Source: Sulfurimonas sp. (GTDB lineage Bacteria; Campylobacterota; Campylobacteria; Campylobacterales; Sulfurimonadaceae). Taken from it: a stretch of DNA of 64,000 nt. The notes under the pieces were generated by a model. It had not been told where the DNA came from. It searched no databases and worked only from the letters and a program-made list of their open reading frames with translations. This document shows, in pieces, positions 20,885-29,275 of the stretch; the first letter of the stretch is position 1, and every line of letters begins with the position of its first letter. The stretch lies in NCBI GenBank assembly GCA_013791885.1, contig VMSZ01000038.1, positions 62,001 through 126,000 of the forward strand, given 5' to 3'. Both the position numbers and the translations under genes were made by a program.

Positions 20885-21448
20885 TTAGTTTAAATCCCCG
20901 TCAGCCCAATATTTTGTTCCCTGAATCGTTGCTTGGATGGCTAAACCATTTTCTGTGAGTTTATAGATGCGAACTCCTGGAGCAACTGTAATTGCTGCGT
21001 TTAGTGCGCCTCCGTCTCCTCTGATTTTTGCCGCTGCGTCTGCTTGGGCATTTGCTTCCCATCCGTGTTGTACAAAAAAGTCAAAGGCTTTTTTGGTTTC
21101 AAACAAAAAAACGATTCTAAAATCTTTAATGCCAAGGCCTAAACCAACTCCGCCTGATGCCATGTTCATATAAGTAATGTTGCCGTTGCTGTTGACTTTG
21201 GCAAGACCTTTTCCGCCTTCGACAGAAAAGAAGAGAGCATTAACGCCTACATTGGCAAAAGTAGCGTAACCATAAGAGTTTGCTACCATGTCCTTTGCCT
21301 CCGGGGCGTACTTGTAAAGCATATTAAGGGTTTCATGACTGAGTTGAATGCGCTCATTTTTCAGTTGATTTGGACTCTCCCCTGACCAAAAACCTGAAAA
21401 CATTATTACTGCAAGCATAAGTGCTGCAACTACTCCTAATTTTCTCAT
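20885..21448 (-). CDS. SYLF (YSC84-like) lipid-binding domain protein, exported
   Basis: 187 residues with an N-terminal signal (MRKLGVVAALMLAVIMFSGFWS). The body is the SYLF/Ysc84 fold: MVANSYGYATFANVGVNALFFSVEGGKGLAKV, then SGGVGLGLGIKDFRIVFLFETKKAFDFF. In other bacteria and in eukaryotes this domain binds phospholipids. Stands between cobQ2 (18 bases upstream) and the CsgG operon. An AT-rich 7-bp inverted repeat (20868-20890) overlaps its stop codon. Confidence 0.8.
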   Translation of the reverse strand: MRKLGVVAALMLAVIMFSGFWSGESPNQLKNERIQLSHETLNMLYKYAPEAKDMVANSYGYATFANVGVNALFFSVEGGKGLAKVNSNGNITYMNMASGGVGLGLGIKDFRIVFLFETKKAFDFFVQHGWEANAQADAAAKIRGDGGALNAAITVAPGVRIYKLTENGLAIQATIQGTKYWADGDLN

Positions 21449-21466: not shown

Positions 21467-22849
21467 TTAAATTAACTCTTTTTCTATAGCCTCAATATTA
21501 ACACTACTTTCTATATGAGCGGCAAACTCCTCGATAACTTTTTGCTTATGCGCTTCGTAGTCGTAGCCTTTGTACTCAGGATTTATTGAGCGGAACAGTT
21601 TGTTTCTAAATTTACTGTTCTCAAAAATACCATGGACATGGGTTGCATAAAGATTGCGTTTTTTAACAGCCACCTCTTTTGTAATGGCGTTATGAATCTC
21701 ATAGCCCTCGAGTTTACAGCCAAAAATAGAGTAAAGGCCTTTTTTAGTAAAGGTCTTTTTTTTGAGTTCTATATTGCCCTCGACTCTGGCAAGTCCAGGT
21801 ACTTTTTTGTGCTGGGATTCTACTCCATGCGGATCTAAAATGAACTCATGAAGCATCTCGTATCCGCCTGAAATGGCAACAAGTTTTTGTTCTTTTGAGG
21901 TAAGAATATTTTTAAAACCTCCATCTATGAGCCATTCTAAGTCTTCTGCAACCAGCTTGCTTCCGGGTAAAATAAGCAAATCGCAAAAAGAGGCCTCGTG
22001 CAAGCCTGTAATAAAACGCAGTTCTATTTCTTTGTCTGCAATGAGTGGCTCAAAGTCAGTGATGTTACTGATGTGCGGGAGTTTCAAAACCCCGACTGTA
22101 ATAATGGCCGCAGAGGTGTCTTGTTGGTATGCCATCATAGACTTTAAGTCATGAAAACCACTATTGAGTTCTTTGTGCGGGACAACACCAAGCACTCTCA
22201 TGCCAAAAAGCTGCTCAATAATACTCGCACCGTCTTCAACTTCGGGCACATTGTTTTGAAATTTATCGACAATAACGCCAATAACGTTTTTTCTCAGTTT
22301 CTTCGGTAAAAGCTTGTAAACGCCATAAATTGAAGAAAATAGCGTTCCGTCGTCAATACTTGTGACAAGAATGATTTTGGTATGAAACTCTTCGGCTATG
22401 TAGATGTTGGAAAGGTCACGTTTCATATAACTCTGTTCAACAGGATTCCCCGCGCCCTCAGCCACCACACATTCATACTCTGCAAGGAGTTTGGAAAAAG
22501 CATTTTTGACGTAAGGCTTGAGAATCTGCGTGTCTTTGTAACAGCTCCAAATATCTTTTTTACCAAAACTTTTCCCGTCTATGATGAGGTCGGTTCTCGT
22601 CGGGGAGTCGCGTTTGAGTAAAACAGGGTTCATAAGATGAGAACTTTTAATGCCAAGAGCCTCCGCCGCAAAGTGCTGAGGAATTGCCATCTCGCCGCCG
22701 TCGTCACTTATCTGTGAGTTTTCTGAGATACTCTGTGCTTTAAATGGGGCTACTTTGTAGCCACGTTTATGTAATATGTAAGTAAGCGCAAAGGCAATAG
22801 TAGACTTTCCGTCATCATTGCTTGTTCCGAAAATACTAAGTGATTTCAA
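21467..22849 (-). CDS. CobQ paralogue lacking key active-site residues
   Basis: 460 residues, collinear with the CobQ at 27458-28849 and about half identical by eye. Key positions have changed. The glutaminase nucleophile is Ser327 (AISGGYE) where the other copy has Cys327 (AICGGYE). The DIERGG loop at residues 164-169 reads SIDDGT. NKFRGD reads DKFQNN. The P-loop reads GTSNDDGKST instead of GTSSDAGKST. The C-terminal HG of the glutaminase triad (HVHGIF) is kept. The frame is intact throughout, so this is not a decayed pseudogene; it is probably a pseudo-enzyme or has another substrate. It is the last gene of the cobalamin locus, separated from ycaO by a family B repeat. Confidence 0.85.
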   Translation of the reverse strand: MKSLSIFGTSNDDGKSTIAFALTYILHKRGYKVAPFKAQSISENSQISDDGGEMAIPQHFAAEALGIKSSHLMNPVLLKRDSPTRTDLIIDGKSFGKKDIWSCYKDTQILKPYVKNAFSKLLAEYECVVAEGAGNPVEQSYMKRDLSNIYIAEEFHTKIILVTSIDDGTLFSSIYGVYKLLPKKLRKNVIGVIVDKFQNNVPEVEDGASIIEQLFGMRVLGVVPHKELNSGFHDLKSMMAYQQDTSAAIITVGVLKLPHISNITDFEPLIADKEIELRFITGLHEASFCDLLILPGSKLVAEDLEWLIDGGFKNILTSKEQKLVAISGGYEMLHEFILDPHGVESQHKKVPGLARVEGNIELKKKTFTKKGLYSIFGCKLEGYEIHNAITKEVAVKKRNLYATHVHGIFENSKFRNKLFRSINPEYKGYDYEAHKQKVIEEFAAHIESSVNIEAIEKELI

Positions 22850-22911
22850 AGCGTAATATTCCTTTTGAAGGTGTTGTCACCATTTTGTAGCAAAAAGTGT
22901 ACTCACTCTTT

Positions 22912-22987
22912 AAACGCAAAATGAACGCGTCCATTTTGCTACGCTTGCGCCGCTATGGCGACTAAAGCTTTGCCCCTTTGGGGCAAG
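22912..22987 (+). repeat. Structured intergenic repeat family B, copy 1
   Basis: Hairpin 1 (22916-22939) has arms GCAAAATG/CATTTTGC around AACGCGTC. TACGCT leads into hairpin 2 (22948-22960, CGCCGCTATGGCG), then ACTAAAGC and hairpin 3 (22970-22986, TTGCCCC TTT GGGGCAA). The element runs into the 3' end of ycaO. Same plan at 38441-38513 and inverted at 49411-49527. Confidence 0.82.
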
Positions 22988-24605
22988 AATTTTTACTGCG
23001 TTTTTTGAGCTCCAGTCTGTCATACATAGCGAGCATATTTCGGTAATCCTGATGCAGTGTCACATCTATCAAATACTCATCGCCATCAAGAATTCCCAGC
23101 GCTTTTTGGACTTTTTCTTCCGTATAGATTGCGTTTAAGCCCTCTTCATACTCTTCAAAAAGCATATCGTTTGTATCCATTCGCATAAGTTCAAGAACAA
23201 TGTGGCCGAGTCTGTCTTGTCCAAATTCGAGGAGTTCAAAAACTTCTTCAGAGTTTCTTAGCATAAGATGAACCTGTGCTTTGAACTCACGCATAGTGAA
23301 GTTTTGCGCAAATATTACACCGATGTATTTTTCCATATTGAGCGAATCTTCGAGGGATTCTATTTCGGTTAAAATGTCTTCAGGGTCATACTCTTTGAAG
23401 TTTAAAACCATATCTCTTATGCGTTTTGGCGTGTTTTTGTTGTTGTAAATCAGGTCGTCAATCGGGTAGACTTCACTTATACCTGGAATGAGCATCTGGC
23501 AGGAGTAAAAGCCTAAGTAGTCGTACTCTCTGAGGTATATTTCATGTTCTAAGTCACGTGCGATGCCAATTAAGAACGCATGTTCATCTTCTGTGCAAGA
23601 ACCATCATAACGCCATGGTGTGTAGGGAAAACTTTTTTTTGAGCTCAGAAAATGAAAACCGAGTTTGCCGTTGGAATCTATAAAATGCGATTCTAAATTA
23701 AAGTTGTCTGCAACTAAACTCAAATCAAAAGTAGGGGTTTCAAAACCGTCTAAATTTTCAAGTCCGCGTCCCTGCATAAGCTCTGTCATAGTGCGTTCAA
23801 GGGAGACTTCCAAAATCGGGTGTGCTCCAAAAGAGACAAAAAGCGTGGCGTTTTTCGGGTTGATGAGAGAAATGGCGGTGACGGGAAATTCACCGCCCAA
23901 AGAGGCATCTAAAACCTCAATAATATAGCCTAAATCTCTGAGTGCCCCAACGTCGTGTGAGAGTTTTGTAAAAGAGTTTACAAGTTCATCCGGAAATTTC
24001 GGCAGGGCGTAACCGTTTTTGATGATTTGCATCTTCGCATAGCGCTCATAAATCTCGCTTAGTGCCTGAACCTGCGCTTCTTGCGGAGTGTTTCCGGTGG
24101 CAAGACCGTTACTGACATACAAATTGCTCAATATATTTATTGGAAAATAAATTTGTTCCCCAGTAGAATGCTTGACAAAAGGCAAGGAGACAATCTTGTC
24201 CTCATAATCGCTGTTGTAGTCCACCAAATCTTCATCGCTCAGTTCTGCGTTTGGGTCGTAAATGCTTAGGAGTTCAGCGCTGAGATACTCTCCGCCAAAG
24301 TCAAACGCAACTTCATCGGGGTAATATTTACGATTAGGCAGATGAAAATCTATAAAAAAGTTGTTTGTCTGAAGTCGCTCAATGTACTCGCCCAAAGCAC
24401 TTGCCATGGAAGCTTCCGAGAGCGTGCCTTTGCCGTTTGAGTAGATATGTTTAGGTGCTTCTTTAGAAGCCAAATTGACTGAGTAACAGTTTTGCAGAGG
24501 ATGTTTTTCTTCTGAGAAAGTAACTTCACAGCCAACGCTTTCTAAAACTGAACGCATTTTTTTTAAGGACTCTTCGAGCGGGGCATCTTTGGAAAGGATA
24601 TTCAT
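22962..24605 (-). CDS. ycaO: YcaO-domain protein (RimO-accessory type)
   Basis: 547 residues, close to the length of E. coli YcaO. The YcaO ATP-binding core spans about residues 55-380 (SNGKGTLSEASMASALGEYIER; ATGNTPQEAQVQALSEIYERYA), followed by a helical C-terminal domain. The E. coli protein is an accessory factor for S12 methylthiolation by RimO; YcaO enzymes activate amide backbones with ATP. No precursor peptide or partner dehydrogenase is visible nearby, so a RiPP role is less likely. The last eight residues (SCPKGAKL) are encoded by the third hairpin of a family B repeat. It follows cobC by 23 bases. Confidence 0.85.
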   Translation of the reverse strand: MNILSKDAPLEESLKKMRSVLESVGCEVTFSEEKHPLQNCYSVNLASKEAPKHIYSNGKGTLSEASMASALGEYIERLQTNNFFIDFHLPNRKYYPDEVAFDFGGEYLSAELLSIYDPNAELSDEDLVDYNSDYEDKIVSLPFVKHSTGEQIYFPINILSNLYVSNGLATGNTPQEAQVQALSEIYERYAKMQIIKNGYALPKFPDELVNSFTKLSHDVGALRDLGYIIEVLDASLGGEFPVTAISLINPKNATLFVSFGAHPILEVSLERTMTELMQGRGLENLDGFETPTFDLSLVADNFNLESHFIDSNGKLGFHFLSSKKSFPYTPWRYDGSCTEDEHAFLIGIARDLEHEIYLREYDYLGFYSCQMLIPGISEVYPIDDLIYNNKNTPKRIRDMVLNFKEYDPEDILTEIESLEDSLNMEKYIGVIFAQNFTMREFKAQVHLMLRNSEEVFELLEFGQDRLGHIVLELMRMDTNDMLFEEYEEGLNAIYTEEKVQKALGILDGDEYLIDVTLHQDYRNMLAMYDRLELKKRSKNSCPKGAKL

Positions 24606-24628: not shown

Positions 24629-25192
24629 TTAGGGCTTTACTTGGACAAATGTATTGGCTATTTTATCTAAAATCACGCAAGAAGCGTAGGGCAATTCAGT
24701 GGCAAAAGCCTCTTCGAGTGTAATATTTTGCACAAGTGAGAGGAGCATTTTGATAACACCACTGTGCGTTACAACTAAAATATTTTGAGCATCTTGCTTG
24801 AAGATAGTCTTAAAAAAATAGTTTTCTACTCTTCGTCTAAAATCTTCTACACGCTCGCCATCGAGTGCATCTACCCAATAGTCAAAGTTAAGGTACTCAA
24901 TTCCTTCTGCGTTTATCTGCTCAAAACTTTTGCCCTCATGACGTCCCCAAGATTTTTCTCTGAGTGCCGATGAAAAAATGGGTTTGCATTGAAGTTCAAA
25001 AGGGGCAAGTGTTTCTTTTGCTCGAAGCAAGTCAGAACAAAAAACCGTGTCAAAGCCTGCATTCAGGTACTTATCTGCCAAAGCTAAGGCTTGTTCATCT
25101 CCTTTTTTTGAGAGCCCAATCTCATTGTGCCCGTTGTATTTGCCCAAAAAATCGTCTTGAACTTGGGCGTGTCTGAGGAGTGTGATTTTCAT
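24629..25192 (-). CDS. cobC: Alpha-ribazole phosphatase (histidine phosphatase family)
   Basis: 187 residues. The RHG motif is LLRHAQ (His8). The family's second phosphatase signature is SALREKSWGRHEGKSFEQ, and the later VTHSGVIKMLL supplies the second catalytic histidine. In the cobalamin pathway it removes the 5'-phosphate from alpha-ribazole phosphate or adenosylcobalamin phosphate. The name rests on position directly after cobS, whose stop it overlaps by four bases; motifs alone would only give a phosphoglycerate mutase-like phosphatase. Confidence 0.85.
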   Translation of the reverse strand: MKITLLRHAQVQDDFLGKYNGHNEIGLSKKGDEQALALADKYLNAGFDTVFCSDLLRAKETLAPFELQCKPIFSSALREKSWGRHEGKSFEQINAEGIEYLNFDYWVDALDGERVEDFRRRVENYFFKTIFKQDAQNILVVTHSGVIKMLLSLVQNITLEEAFATELPYASCVILDKIANTFVQVKP

Positions 25193-25911
25193 GCGTAAGT
25201 TCGAATGATGACTGCGTTTAAAAGGACGAGTTCACTGATTTCTATGATGAAGCCGTAAATATCCCCGCTGAGTCCGCCAAGACGTTTGACAAAAAACGCA
25301 GCGCAGAGAAGGCCGACAAGCAAAGAGAGGAAAAACGAAGTGCCAAATGAGAAAAAATAGACCAAAACGCAGCTGTAAATAAAAGCAAAAAGAACCATTT
25401 TGAGTGAAAGTTCCTCTTTTAAAAGCGCGCCGACACCTTTGCTGGCGTAAGGAAAAAAGTAGATGGCAAGGCTTGCGTTTAGGCGTGAAATCATCAGCAA
25501 AACCGGCAGAAGATAATAGGCCTCGAAGTAGATGAGGCTTGAGAGTTTGAGTGCTAAAAACGCAAAAGTGAAAATCATCCCCATTCCGCCGACATGAGCA
25601 TCTTTCATAACTTCAAAGGCACGTTGTTTGGAGACAAAAAGTCCGTCTATGGTATCGCTGAGGCCATCAAGATGCAACGCGCCCGTGAGCAAAATCCAAA
25701 GAGCAAAGATGAGGACCGCCAGATGAGTTGGCGGGAGCTGCGTTTGCAGAAGTGAATGTACACCCCAGAGAACAGCGCCAATAATGAAACCCACAAGCGG
25801 ATAAAACATGGCCGAATAGCCGTTGATTCCCTTGAAAAAAGTGTGCACTTTAAAAAAAGGCAAGATAGTGAGCATATTAAACGCAAGGGCAAAACCGTAG
25901 AAGAGTTTCAT
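25189..25911 (-). CDS. cobS: Adenosylcobinamide-GDP ribazoletransferase
   Basis: 240 residues from ATG 25911, which overlaps the cobU stop as ATGA; the open frame reaches 16 codons further but that would invade cobU. Multi-spanning membrane protein. The family hallmark is GALHLDGLSDTIDGLF near residue 75, whose aspartates bind metal, and KDAHVGGMG follows. It joins adenosylcobinamide-GDP with alpha-ribazole (phosphate) at the membrane, completing the nucleotide loop. Confidence 0.93.
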   Translation of the reverse strand: MKLFYGFALAFNMLTILPFFKVHTFFKGINGYSAMFYPLVGFIIGAVLWGVHSLLQTQLPPTHLAVLIFALWILLTGALHLDGLSDTIDGLFVSKQRAFEVMKDAHVGGMGMIFTFAFLALKLSSLIYFEAYYLLPVLLMISRLNASLAIYFFPYASKGVGALLKEELSLKMVLFAFIYSCVLVYFFSFGTSFFLSLLVGLLCAAFFVKRLGGLSGDIYGFIIEISELVLLNAVIIRTYA

Positions 25912-26402
25912 TTGATGCGCACACTTATGCCCGCAACGGTGTTGTAGACTTCCTCGCATTGTTGCGCCAAAAACTGAGCGACACGGCCGTTGATATCTAC
26001 GAAGTCCCGCACAAGCCTATTCTCGCCTATAACAGAGCAGCTAACGTCGTTGATAACAAACACGATGTTTGCGTTTGTGCTTGTTAGGGCTGTGAGTGCT
26101 GCAAAAATTTCTGCCTCATTTTTGCCGTGGTAAAGCATATTGTTAATCCACATACTCACACACTCAAGTAAAATGGGCGCTTCTTGATTTTGGGTAGCTT
26201 CATAGAGATTTAGCGGCTCTTCAAGCGTAATAAATTTCTCGTCCCGCTGCGTTTGGTGTTTGGCGACTCGCTCACGCATCTCTTCATCAAAAAACTCTGT
26301 CGTTGCCAAATAAATGGGTTTTTCTTTGGCAAACGCAAGAATGTAGTTCTCTGCGTTTTTGCTCTTGCCGCTTTTGATGCCGCCGATAAAAAGTGCGCGC
26401 AT
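25908..26402 (-). CDS. cobU: Bifunctional adenosylcobinamide kinase / guanylyltransferase
   Basis: 164 residues. P-loop GGIKSGKS at residues 7-14, and a later E-C-V-S-M-W-I-N-N-M segment typical of CobU. NDVSCSVIGENRLVRDFVDINGR includes the conserved region with R and D after the guanylation site. The enzyme phosphorylates adenosylcobinamide and attaches GMP. Somewhat shorter than the about 180 residues usual for the family. It starts right after cobT and overlaps cobS. Confidence 0.92.
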   Translation of the reverse strand: MRALFIGGIKSGKSKNAENYILAFAKEKPIYLATTEFFDEEMRERVAKHQTQRDEKFITLEEPLNLYEATQNQEAPILLECVSMWINNMLYHGKNEAEIFAALTALTSTNANIVFVINDVSCSVIGENRLVRDFVDINGRVAQFLAQQCEEVYNTVAGISVRIK

Positions 26403-27458
26403 TTACATCTCGTACATAATGAGTTCGACTGCGTTTAGTACATCTGCGTTACTAAGCCCGTTTGCGCACGCATAAGCAAGTGCGGCACCTGCACCGACAC
26501 CCTCTTTTGCTTCGCCTTCGTCATACTTTTTAAGCACGGGAATTTCTGCGTTTGCAAAGCTGAATTCTGTATAGACTGCGTGTGGCGTGTAGCTCAGTTG
26601 AGAGAGAATTTTTTGTATGTCTGAGTATTCATCTTTTGCCACCCACTGCGTTGTAGCAAGGGTAATGTTGTCATGTTTTATGCGCATAAGCACATCTTCT
26701 CTCAGAGCGTCGGCAATGAGTAGACAAGCCGCCATCTGCGTTCCGCCGGCTAGAACGACATGAAATCTTCTCGAAGCCTCAAACAAAAAACCTGCACAAA
26801 AGAGAAGCATATTATCACTGACATAAGAGAGCTTTTCAAAGTTGTTCATCTCTGCGTTTACCAGCGAGAGAGCTTGGTCTATAGTTGCGTTTTTTATGTT
26901 TGTCGGGACATTTAAAAAGCTTGAAGAAAAAGCATCTTGGCAGTCATAGCCCAGTGCTAAGGAAGTAGCCGCCGCCGTTGTTGTCCCGCTTGGAGTGCTT
27001 TCGCCGAGGATGAGATAACTCCCTTTGAGCTCGTAACTTTTGCCAAAAAGCATTCCTTTTTCAAAAACGCTTCGGGCATCTATCTTCGCCCCTGTCGCTA
27101 TGGAACCCGAGATAGGAATGTTGAAATTATGCACAAAGCACTGCTGAGGCTGAAGTTCGAGTCCTAAGTCCACAATCTCTATGCTTTTAAAAGGGTTGAG
27201 ATTATGAACGGCTCGTGTAATGAGTGCCGGAGTCGGTACTCCGCTTGGCGTTTGTGCAAGTTCTGGCAGAGAATGGAGCTTTTGAGTGCAAATAAATTCC
27301 GCGTCAAGCGTAGGTGTGAGAGGAATTTTCCCCGGAATTCCTGCTTGTGTTATTCCCTCAATTTCGCAGGTTCGTGTTACGCTTGCGGCAAGTAGAAAAT
27401 CGGCTTTTCCTTCTGGAAGAGTGTCTGTCTGGTTGGTAAAAAGATTAAAAGTTTTCAT
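26403..27458 (-). CDS. cobT: Nicotinate-nucleotide:dimethylbenzimidazole phosphoribosyltransferase, archaeal/cyanobacterial type
   Basis: 351 residues. The strong signature is LGESTPSGTTTAAATSLALGYD near residues 150-172, diagnostic of the TIGR00303-type CobT family rather than the enterobacterial form. VVLAGGTQMAACLL lies near residue 233. It makes alpha-ribazole phosphate from the lower-ligand base and nicotinate mononucleotide. The start ATG overlaps the cobQ stop by one base. No base-synthesis gene (BluB or Bza) is in the window. Confidence 0.9.
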   Translation of the reverse strand: MKTFNLFTNQTDTLPEGKADFLLAASVTRTCEIEGITQAGIPGKIPLTPTLDAEFICTQKLHSLPELAQTPSGVPTPALITRAVHNLNPFKSIEIVDLGLELQPQQCFVHNFNIPISGSIATGAKIDARSVFEKGMLFGKSYELKGSYLILGESTPSGTTTAAATSLALGYDCQDAFSSSFLNVPTNIKNATIDQALSLVNAEMNNFEKLSYVSDNMLLFCAGFLFEASRRFHVVLAGGTQMAACLLIADALREDVLMRIKHDNITLATTQWVAKDEYSDIQKILSQLSYTPHAVYTEFSFANAEIPVLKKYDEGEAKEGVGAGAALAYACANGLSNADVLNAVELIMYEM

Positions 27459-28849
27459 TATTTTCCTAAGTGTAGATTTTGAACTATAAAGTCGATGTCA
27501 ACGTGTTTTTCTATGTGCTGTGCGAAGTTTTTGATACTTTGTTTTTTGTACTCTTTGAAGTTGTAGCCACGATAATTTTTGTCTATCTGTGAAAAAATCT
27601 CATAACGGATTCCGTCGTTGTCAAACAAACCGTGAAGAAATGTGCCGTAGAGATTTTTCTTCTTTGTTGCAAGATTTTTGGTTTGGGCGTTGTGGATTTC
27701 ATAACCCTGAATTTTATGTCCAAAGAGTTTATACGAGCCTTTTTTGACTGTTTTTTCTGCTTCAAAAATCACATCGCCTTTTATCCGTCCAAAACCTTTG
27801 ATTTCTTTTTCCCCAGACTCTATGCCTAAAGGGTCTGAAATTCTCTCAAACATCATCTCGTAGCCTCCGCAGATGGCAACAACTTTTTGCTTTTTGCTGA
27901 CAAGACTTGACTCAAACCCTCGTTCTCTCAGCCAAGCCAAATCTTCTACAACTCTTTTACTTCCCGGAATGACAATCAGCTGACAAGAACTGAGTTCGCT
28001 GATATTGGAGATGAACGAGAGCTCTATTTCCCCATCGGCAACAAGGGGTTCAAAGTCTGTAAAGTTACTCATGTGAGGGAGTTTTAAAACGCCTACTTTT
28101 AAGAGTGCCTTTGAAGTGTCCTGAGTATAGCCCATGAGCGATTGGCTGTCTTCAAAGCCGAGATTAAAAGGTAGAAACGGGACAACACCCAGAACTCTCA
28201 GACCAAAACGATTTTGAATAATCTCAATTCCCTCGTCAAACAGGCTCATATCACCACGAAATTTGTTGACAATCACACCGATGACATTTTTACGTAACTC
28301 TTTTGGCAGCAGTTTATAAACCCCGTAAATGGAAGCGAAAACGCCGCCGCGTTCAATGTCCGCCACCAAAATAATTTTGGTTTTGAACTTTTTGGCGACA
28401 TAGATGTTAGACAAATCTTTGTCCATAAGATTGAGCTCCACGGGACTTCCAGCCCCCTCAGCCACAATACATTCATACTGCGTTTGGAGTTTTTTGAAGG
28501 CTTTTTTGACAAAGGGTTTGAGTGTGTCTATATCTTTGTAATAACTCCAGACATCCTTTTCGCCCACGCTTTTGCCGTTGATGATAAGATGCGCCGCGTT
28601 TTTGGAACCCGATTTTAAAAGGATAGGGTTCATAAAATGTGAAGTAGCAATTCCAATAGCCTCAGCAGCAAAGTGTTGGGGAATAGCAATCTCCCCGCCA
28701 TCATCACAAACTTGCGAATTGTTTGAAACATTTTGCGCTTTAAACGGAGCGACTTTTATGCCGCGTTTGTGAAGCAGGTAGGTAATGGCAAAACTAAGCG
28801 TAGATTTACCAGCGTCGCTGCTTGTGCCGAAGATGCTTAGGGAGTTCAT
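27458..28849 (-). CDS. cobQ: Cobyric acid synthase
   Basis: 463 residues. All expected motifs are present: P-loop GTSSDAGKST (8-17), APFKAQNVSNNS, ADIERGG (163-169), NKFRGD, the glutaminase nucleophile Cys327 in AICGGYE, and the histidine in LHGLFDND. It amidates four side chains of adenosylcobyrinic acid diamide using glutamine and ATP. It is the functional copy against which the paralogue at 21467-22849 is judged. One base separates it from the Cys-rich gene upstream. Confidence 0.93.
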   Translation of the reverse strand: MNSLSIFGTSSDAGKSTLSFAITYLLHKRGIKVAPFKAQNVSNNSQVCDDGGEIAIPQHFAAEAIGIATSHFMNPILLKSGSKNAAHLIINGKSVGEKDVWSYYKDIDTLKPFVKKAFKKLQTQYECIVAEGAGSPVELNLMDKDLSNIYVAKKFKTKIILVADIERGGVFASIYGVYKLLPKELRKNVIGVIVNKFRGDMSLFDEGIEIIQNRFGLRVLGVVPFLPFNLGFEDSQSLMGYTQDTSKALLKVGVLKLPHMSNFTDFEPLVADGEIELSFISNISELSSCQLIVIPGSKRVVEDLAWLRERGFESSLVSKKQKVVAICGGYEMMFERISDPLGIESGEKEIKGFGRIKGDVIFEAEKTVKKGSYKLFGHKIQGYEIHNAQTKNLATKKKNLYGTFLHGLFDNDGIRYEIFSQIDKNYRGYNFKEYKKQSIKNFAQHIEKHVDIDFIVQNLHLGK

Positions 28850-29275
28850 TTACAAAACACACTTTTGCATGACTTTCTTCCAATCCAAATCAAAATGTTT
28901 CTCTACATAAGATCTATGGTGAGGGACGCTGCATTTGGAGCAGTCTTGATGGATGGACTCACCGTAGATGCCTTGTGCTCCGTCTTTAGAATCTATGTCA
29001 CAAAAACTGTACTGCGTTTTGTCCTCAATTTTTTGCAGGCCGTCATCTTTAAAGCGGAAGTTTGGGCAGGCGCAGAGGTAGCAGTTGAGAGACTCCATCT
29101 CGTGACATTTTTTATGTTCGGCGTAGAGCGGACAAAAATCAGGCTCTGCTTGAACCATATTTTCAAAGTCAAAATAGTCGATAATCTGCGCTTTTGTAAA
29201 CTCTTGTTTTTGAAGCTTATTGACTATGGTTTTATGTTTGGCAGCGTGCGCTTCAAACCAGGATGTGTAGCTCAT
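28850..29275 (-). CDS. Cysteine-rich small-domain protein of the cobalamin locus
   Basis: 141 residues with ten cysteines, mostly in one block: FCPLYAEHKKCHEMESLNCYLCACPNFRF, later FCDI and HQDCSKCSVPHH. This matches the Pfam cysteine-rich small domain (PF04071), often encoded beside cobalamin genes and thought to bind metal. It may deliver or sense cobalt or an Fe-S cluster; nothing shows which. The start overlaps the end of the BtuC-like permease gene by four bases (ATGA). Confidence 0.8.
   Translation of the reverse strand: MSYTSWFEAHAAKHKTIVNKLQKQEFTKAQIIDYFDFENMVQAEPDFCPLYAEHKKCHEMESLNCYLCACPNFRFKDDGLQKIEDKTQYSFCDIDSKDGAQGIYGESIHQDCSKCSVPHHRSYVEKHFDLDWKKVMQKCVL

Follow-up and report, generated by a model that had tools for sequence, protein, structure and literature searches.

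We identified in the window (the whole 64,000-nucleotide stretch of Sulfurimonas DNA under analysis) a gene for a glutaminase-dead CobQ paralogue that has probably acquired a new role. The gene (21467..22849, minus strand) encodes 460 amino acids from a TTG start and was recognized from its open reading frame and its alignment to the canonical CobQ of the window (27458..28849, minus strand), which has all motifs and the Cys. On balance, we think that a protein derived from CobQ acquired a new function inside Sulfurimonas, be it a new ligase substrate or a corrinoid/nucleotide switch, outlived its cobamide pathway and lost the glutaminase nucleophile in two lineages in parallel. The narrower reading, which we draw from sequence and regard as evenly balanced, is that the protein may be a neofunctionalized, glutamine-independent cobyric acid synthase paralogue acting via a re-specified ATP-binding synthetase domain.

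Replaced and retained residues

The plus strand of 21467-22849 is full of stops, and TTG is the sole possible start of the minus-strand frame in all four genomes that carry the gene, with in-frame stops 6-30 nt upstream. A Shine-Dalgarno-like sequence precedes this start across the carriers (AAGGAA, GAGGAA or AAGGAG); in the window it is AAGGAA (22859..22864, minus strand). The GC content of the gene is that of the window. The first-pass annotation had described the protein as collinear with the functional CobQ, and the two indeed align with zero gaps at 58% identity and 77% positives. The replacements it listed (C327S, VADIERGG to VTSIDDGT, and VNKFRGD to VDKFQNN) all appear in this alignment. 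Its reading of the P-loop as altered stands in part: GTSSDAGKST has become GTSNDDGKST, but the changes fall at variable positions and the Walker A residues G8, G14, K15 and S16 are kept.

Besides C327S, the paralogue departs from CobQ at AQNVSNN, SPVELN, VADI-RGG and NKF-GD, and thereby lacks the synthetase motifs AQNxSNN, AEGAGSPVELN, VADIx(R/K)GG and NKFxGD as well as the glutaminase nucleophile. All 51 canonical sequences have Cys at position 327, which a profile aligns to the Cys elbow of HisH, and the four paralogues have Ser. We scored such departures over the 147 alignment columns at which 48 canonical Sulfurimonas CobQs show no variation. Each paralogue deviates at 30-34 of them, whereas genuine CobQs, left out singly (n=48), depart at a median of 1 and a maximum of 4; the departures exceed chance. 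All four paralogues are altered at 26 of the 147 columns, 14 of these to an identical new residue, and of the 41 columns changed in at least one paralogue, 33 fall within the N-terminal synthetase domain (residues 1-245). N40, N43, S135, L139, N140, D164, G169, N195 and G199 are replaced in all four, as is Cys327; the same positions are invariant in all canonical CobQs that cover them, other families included (n=51). Kept in all four are the Walker A residues and the acidic and lysine residues of the ATP site (K37, D49, E53, E131, E138).

A sequence match for a solved CobQ structure returned none, and an AlphaFold model built on five sequences reached a pLDDT of 55 from a shallow alignment, in which residues could not be placed. 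The presumed roles of single residues are those of the dethiobiotin synthetase/CbiA fold; going by this homology, the replaced positions presumably sit around the base and the acceptor.

Descent, selection and order of changes

We scanned 84,980 species, each represented by one genome, using as query an alignment of the window protein and the orthologue in genome G016, and recovered three loci encoding relatives of the paralogue at 75-77% identity. They belong to the Sulfurimonas metagenome-assembled genomes (MAGs) STC_53 (L045), STC_122 (L046) and GWF2_37_8 (L047), and all three proteins have Ser327 and the same altered motifs. Among 135 Sulfurimonas genomes, the carriers were the window genome and these three MAGs (G141, G016 and G093) only; the three were published as MAGs, and G093 is 82% complete. 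In Campylobacteria outside the genus, the profile search matched only at the score levels of canonical CobQ, and a scan of viral contigs for further CobQ sequences found none.

In a maximum-likelihood tree the four paralogues form one clade (100/100) on a stem of 0.82 changes per site, nested inside the Sulfurimonas CobQs beside the group of the window CobQ (96/90). By identity of phosphoenolpyruvate synthase (PpsA), the genomes nearest to the window genome are the carriers G016 (83%) and G141 (82%), with most others reaching no more than 77%. Vertical descent fits, because the GC content matches that of the window and the closest species by PpsA carry the gene; the same two observations led us to reject a horizontal gain. 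In G017, also a close relative (82% across a portion of PpsA), neither the paralogue nor CobQ was seen, which its incompleteness (68% complete) may explain. The data fit a single duplication in the ancestor of the species group, followed by vertical descent. The canonical cobQ would then have been lost in three species or, alternatively, regained by the window genome. Elsewhere in the genus, G094 (L124:2704-2832) and G077 (L125:1643-1852) each encode, close to an intact cobQ, an N-terminal piece of a second CobQ of canonical type. We ruled these out as remnants of the paralogue since the canonical motifs are present; they are remnants of other duplications. In G010, a genome without CbiB, a canonical CobQ (L023, C2:1357-2724) has an in-frame TAG and is apparently being lost, or the stop is an assembly error.

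Pairwise dN/dS (NG86) was calculated for the pairs among the three closer paralogue sequences and compared with 28 canonical pairs of 85-95% identity. Over the whole protein, values were 0.032-0.073 for the paralogue versus a canonical median of 0.084 (range 0.055-0.143); over the synthetase domain they were 0.019-0.026 versus a median of 0.053, and over the GATase domain 0.053-0.105 versus 0.105. Single ratios are rough because many dS values exceed 1, yet the direction is uniform. Conservation among the carriers extends to the start codon, the ribosome-binding site and the gene downstream. The paralogue is not decaying and is under purifying selection at least as strict as that on a working CobQ; neither relaxed selection nor a broken frame marks it as a pseudogene. 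The earlier proposal that the gene is maintained despite its lost catalytic residues is thus borne out: three orthologues share the replacements, none of them has regained the Cys (0/3), and a dN/dS of 0.03-0.07 speaks against decay in sister strains.

Serine codons point to the order in which residues were lost. At 24 of the 25 serines shared by the four paralogues, the codon box is identical in all. The sole exception is residue 327, encoded by TCA in the window (21869..21871, minus strand) and by AGC or AGT in the three orthologues. Both boxes, TCA and AGY, lie one base change from TGY, and the differing box suggests that Cys327 was probably lost twice. A switch of box through an intermediate is possible; it was seen at none of the other 24 shared serines. 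Judging from these codons, the rewriting of the synthetase domain probably came first, in an ancestral paralogue that would have kept Cys327; two lineages would then each have exchanged this Cys for Ser.

Gene neighborhood and the cobamide pathway

The first-pass annotation had placed the gene at the end of the cobalamin operon. By position this is correct in the window, where the gene lies 112 nt past a gene for a YcaO-domain protein (22962..24605, minus strand) that separates it from cobC and the other nucleotide-loop assembly genes of the cluster, cobS, cobU and cobT (24629..27458, minus strand). The placement does not extend to the other carriers, which have no cob operon and a different gene upstream in each. 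The only constant neighbor (4/4) is downstream, a gene for a SYLF-domain (BPSL1445-type) lipoprotein (20885..21448, minus strand), with an ATGA overlap in three carriers and an 18-nt gap in the window. A constant SYLF neighbor and a varying upstream gene indicate that the two genes form a unit of their own, outside the cobalamin operon. Upstream, the four carriers share an identical 15-mer, AGTACACTTTTTGCT (22889..22903, minus strand), at 40-68 nt 5' of the start and with diverged flanks, which makes it a candidate promoter or control element. The idea of a sigma-54 site in this 15-mer could not be supported, and Rfam gave zero matches to a cobalamin riboswitch near the paralogue or the cobalamin operon. 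A similar sequence, TGTACATTTTTTGCT, lies directly 5' of a gene for a Cys-rich protein in L047 (7058). In the window this protein has 141 amino acids (28850-29275) and weakly resembles PF04071; its gene adjoins CobQ in several loci, is retained in genomes without the pathway, and is probably tied to corrinoid use.

Co-occurrence of the paralogue with other cobamide-assembly enzymes was found only in the window genome. In G016, G141 and G093 we found no canonical CobQ and no full-length CobT, and CobU, CobS and CobC were not among the matches listed, where real matches score far above the cut-off. CbiB was found neither in G016 nor in the window genome. Each genome examined encodes two proteins with a B12-binding domain, one the size of MetH (>1,000 amino acids) and the other of about 500. 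The paralogue thus persists in cells that use cobalamin yet appear not to assemble it.

Partial pathways also occur elsewhere in the genus. Canonical CobQ is kept together with CobT, CobU, CobS and CobC in genomes without CbiB and CbiA, namely the window genome (24629-28849) and G032 and G078, both complete, single-contig assemblies (L158, L159). Short, degenerate CobT-like proteins (242-270 amino acids, about 30-34% to the window CobT) are encoded in four Sulfurimonas genomes (L045:14444-15250; L127:5963-6775; L128:4941-5741; L129:3733-4461) and miss blocks that include much of the region around the conserved STPSGTT segment of the window CobT. In G141 the short gene is near the paralogue; G009, G028 and G109 have no CobQ, and there it lies close to the Cys-rich gene and to a TonB receptor of B12 type. 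These proteins are probably a parallel case of a retained, inactive cobamide enzyme.

Proposed function and known systems

The scenario that we propose starts from a copy of the genus's own CobQ. Along a single long stem this copy changed at many invariant positions, and the product has since stayed under strong purifying selection in the four related species, of which three appear to have lost the real pathway. Because the nucleophile is absent, the known class I route to ammonia from glutamine is closed to the protein. It would still bind nucleotide and Mg and would recognize a different acceptor, perhaps also a different base, so that its most likely activity would be to activate a carboxylate at the expense of ATP, with free ammonia or some other nucleophile as partner. 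This activity would reside in the synthetase domain, the C-terminal domain being kept as a scaffold; the synthetase domain probably changed first, before Cys327 was lost in parallel in two lineages. As first candidate ligand we suggest a corrinoid that these B12-importing cells take up. The first-pass annotation had offered a regulatory pseudo-enzyme, direct use of ammonia or another substrate. The evidence leans toward a changed specificity of the synthetase domain, because this domain changed most and is now the more constrained of the two. Furthermore, the phosphate and Mg residues are kept and the presumed base and acceptor positions replaced, which favors a re-specified ATP-dependent ligase, with a non-catalytic binder as a close second.

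Such a binder, the main rival and in our judgment a tentative possibility, would be a pseudoenzyme that binds corrinoid and/or nucleotide. It might serve as a sensor or chaperone, or partner another protein such as the SYLF lipoprotein or canonical CobQ. The glutaminase nucleophile is gone, along with many motifs of the synthetase domain; should NKF-GD and VADI-RGG serve catalysis in addition to specificity, no chemistry would be left; and the gene persists where the cobamide-assembly enzymes are gone, constantly linked to the SYLF lipoprotein gene and in one carrier with a degenerate short CobT in its locus. However, all four proteins keep Walker A, K37, E131, D49 and E53 unchanged, and a pure binder need not keep the phosphate/Mg site. 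Nor can partnership with canonical CobQ be the only role of the protein, as three carriers are without that enzyme. The loss of catalytic residues and the MAG origin of three carriers would also suit a decaying duplicate or an assembly artifact, which we find very hard to credit given an intact frame, TTG start, Shine-Dalgarno sequence and neighbor conserved in four assemblies, a dN/dS below that of real CobQ, and replaced positions largely fixed to new residues.

Two readings keep the protein closer to its ancestral chemistry. A cobyric acid synthase working in the ordinary pathway with free ammonia would agree with the 58% identity and with scores above both NCBIfam CobQ equivalog cut-offs, and human CPS1 shows that a Cys-to-Ser change can leave an ammonia-dependent enzyme (PMC4655335). 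We consider it improbable, since nine residues invariant in 51 CobQs (N40 to G199, listed above) are replaced, the surrounding pathway is absent in three carriers and canonical CobQ is present in the window. Less probable again is corrinoid repair, in which the paralogue, and canonical CobQ in genomes without CbiA/CbiB, would re-amidate damaged imported corrinoids: canonical CobQ does persist in complete genomes without CbiB and CbiA (G032, G078) and B12-binding enzymes occur in all genomes examined, but the idea is wholly inferential and the substrate motifs of the paralogue are altered.

If the paralogue has a new substrate or serves in sensing, it offers a clean natural experiment: one genome still keeps the ancestral enzyme, there are four orthologues, the order of changes can be dated and a knockout would be a simple test. 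Naming also matters. The paralogue matches the curated NCBIfam CobQ models over its full length and above their cut-offs, with 359.5 bits to PRK00784 (cut-off 273; window CobQ, 474.7) and 315.0 bits to TIGR00313 (cut-off 309.9; orthologues, 318-321; window CobQ, 400.1). Because both cut-offs are passed, automatic annotation would name these genes cobyric acid synthase, and a step of the pathway would be assigned to B12-importing genomes that do not have it. The protein lacks the catalytic Cys and the synthetase motifs, so we call it a CobQ-derived paralogue rather than CobQ.

The literature that we searched turned up no description of a CobQ pseudoenzyme. Like CobQ/CbiP (PRK00784, TIGR00313), the paralogue is full-length and collinear with an AAA_26/CbiA plus GATase_3 architecture; it differs by the absent glutaminase Cys, four replaced motifs and a pathway missing in three of four carriers. 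Another two-domain family of the same fold class by profile is more distant, at only 19-23 bits against cut-offs of 254-261. The CobQ-type glutaminase GatD works with a Cys/His pair (PMC5871853); GatD/MurT has separate subunits and an active Cys, whereas the paralogue is one chain without it. In human CPS1, the change of Cys to Ser explains the inability to use glutamine and the need for free ammonia (PMC4655335). The paralogue likewise keeps its GATase domain with the nucleophile Cys replaced by Ser, yet CPS1 has its synthetase sites intact and is proven to work with ammonia, and in the paralogue the synthetase site is rewritten.
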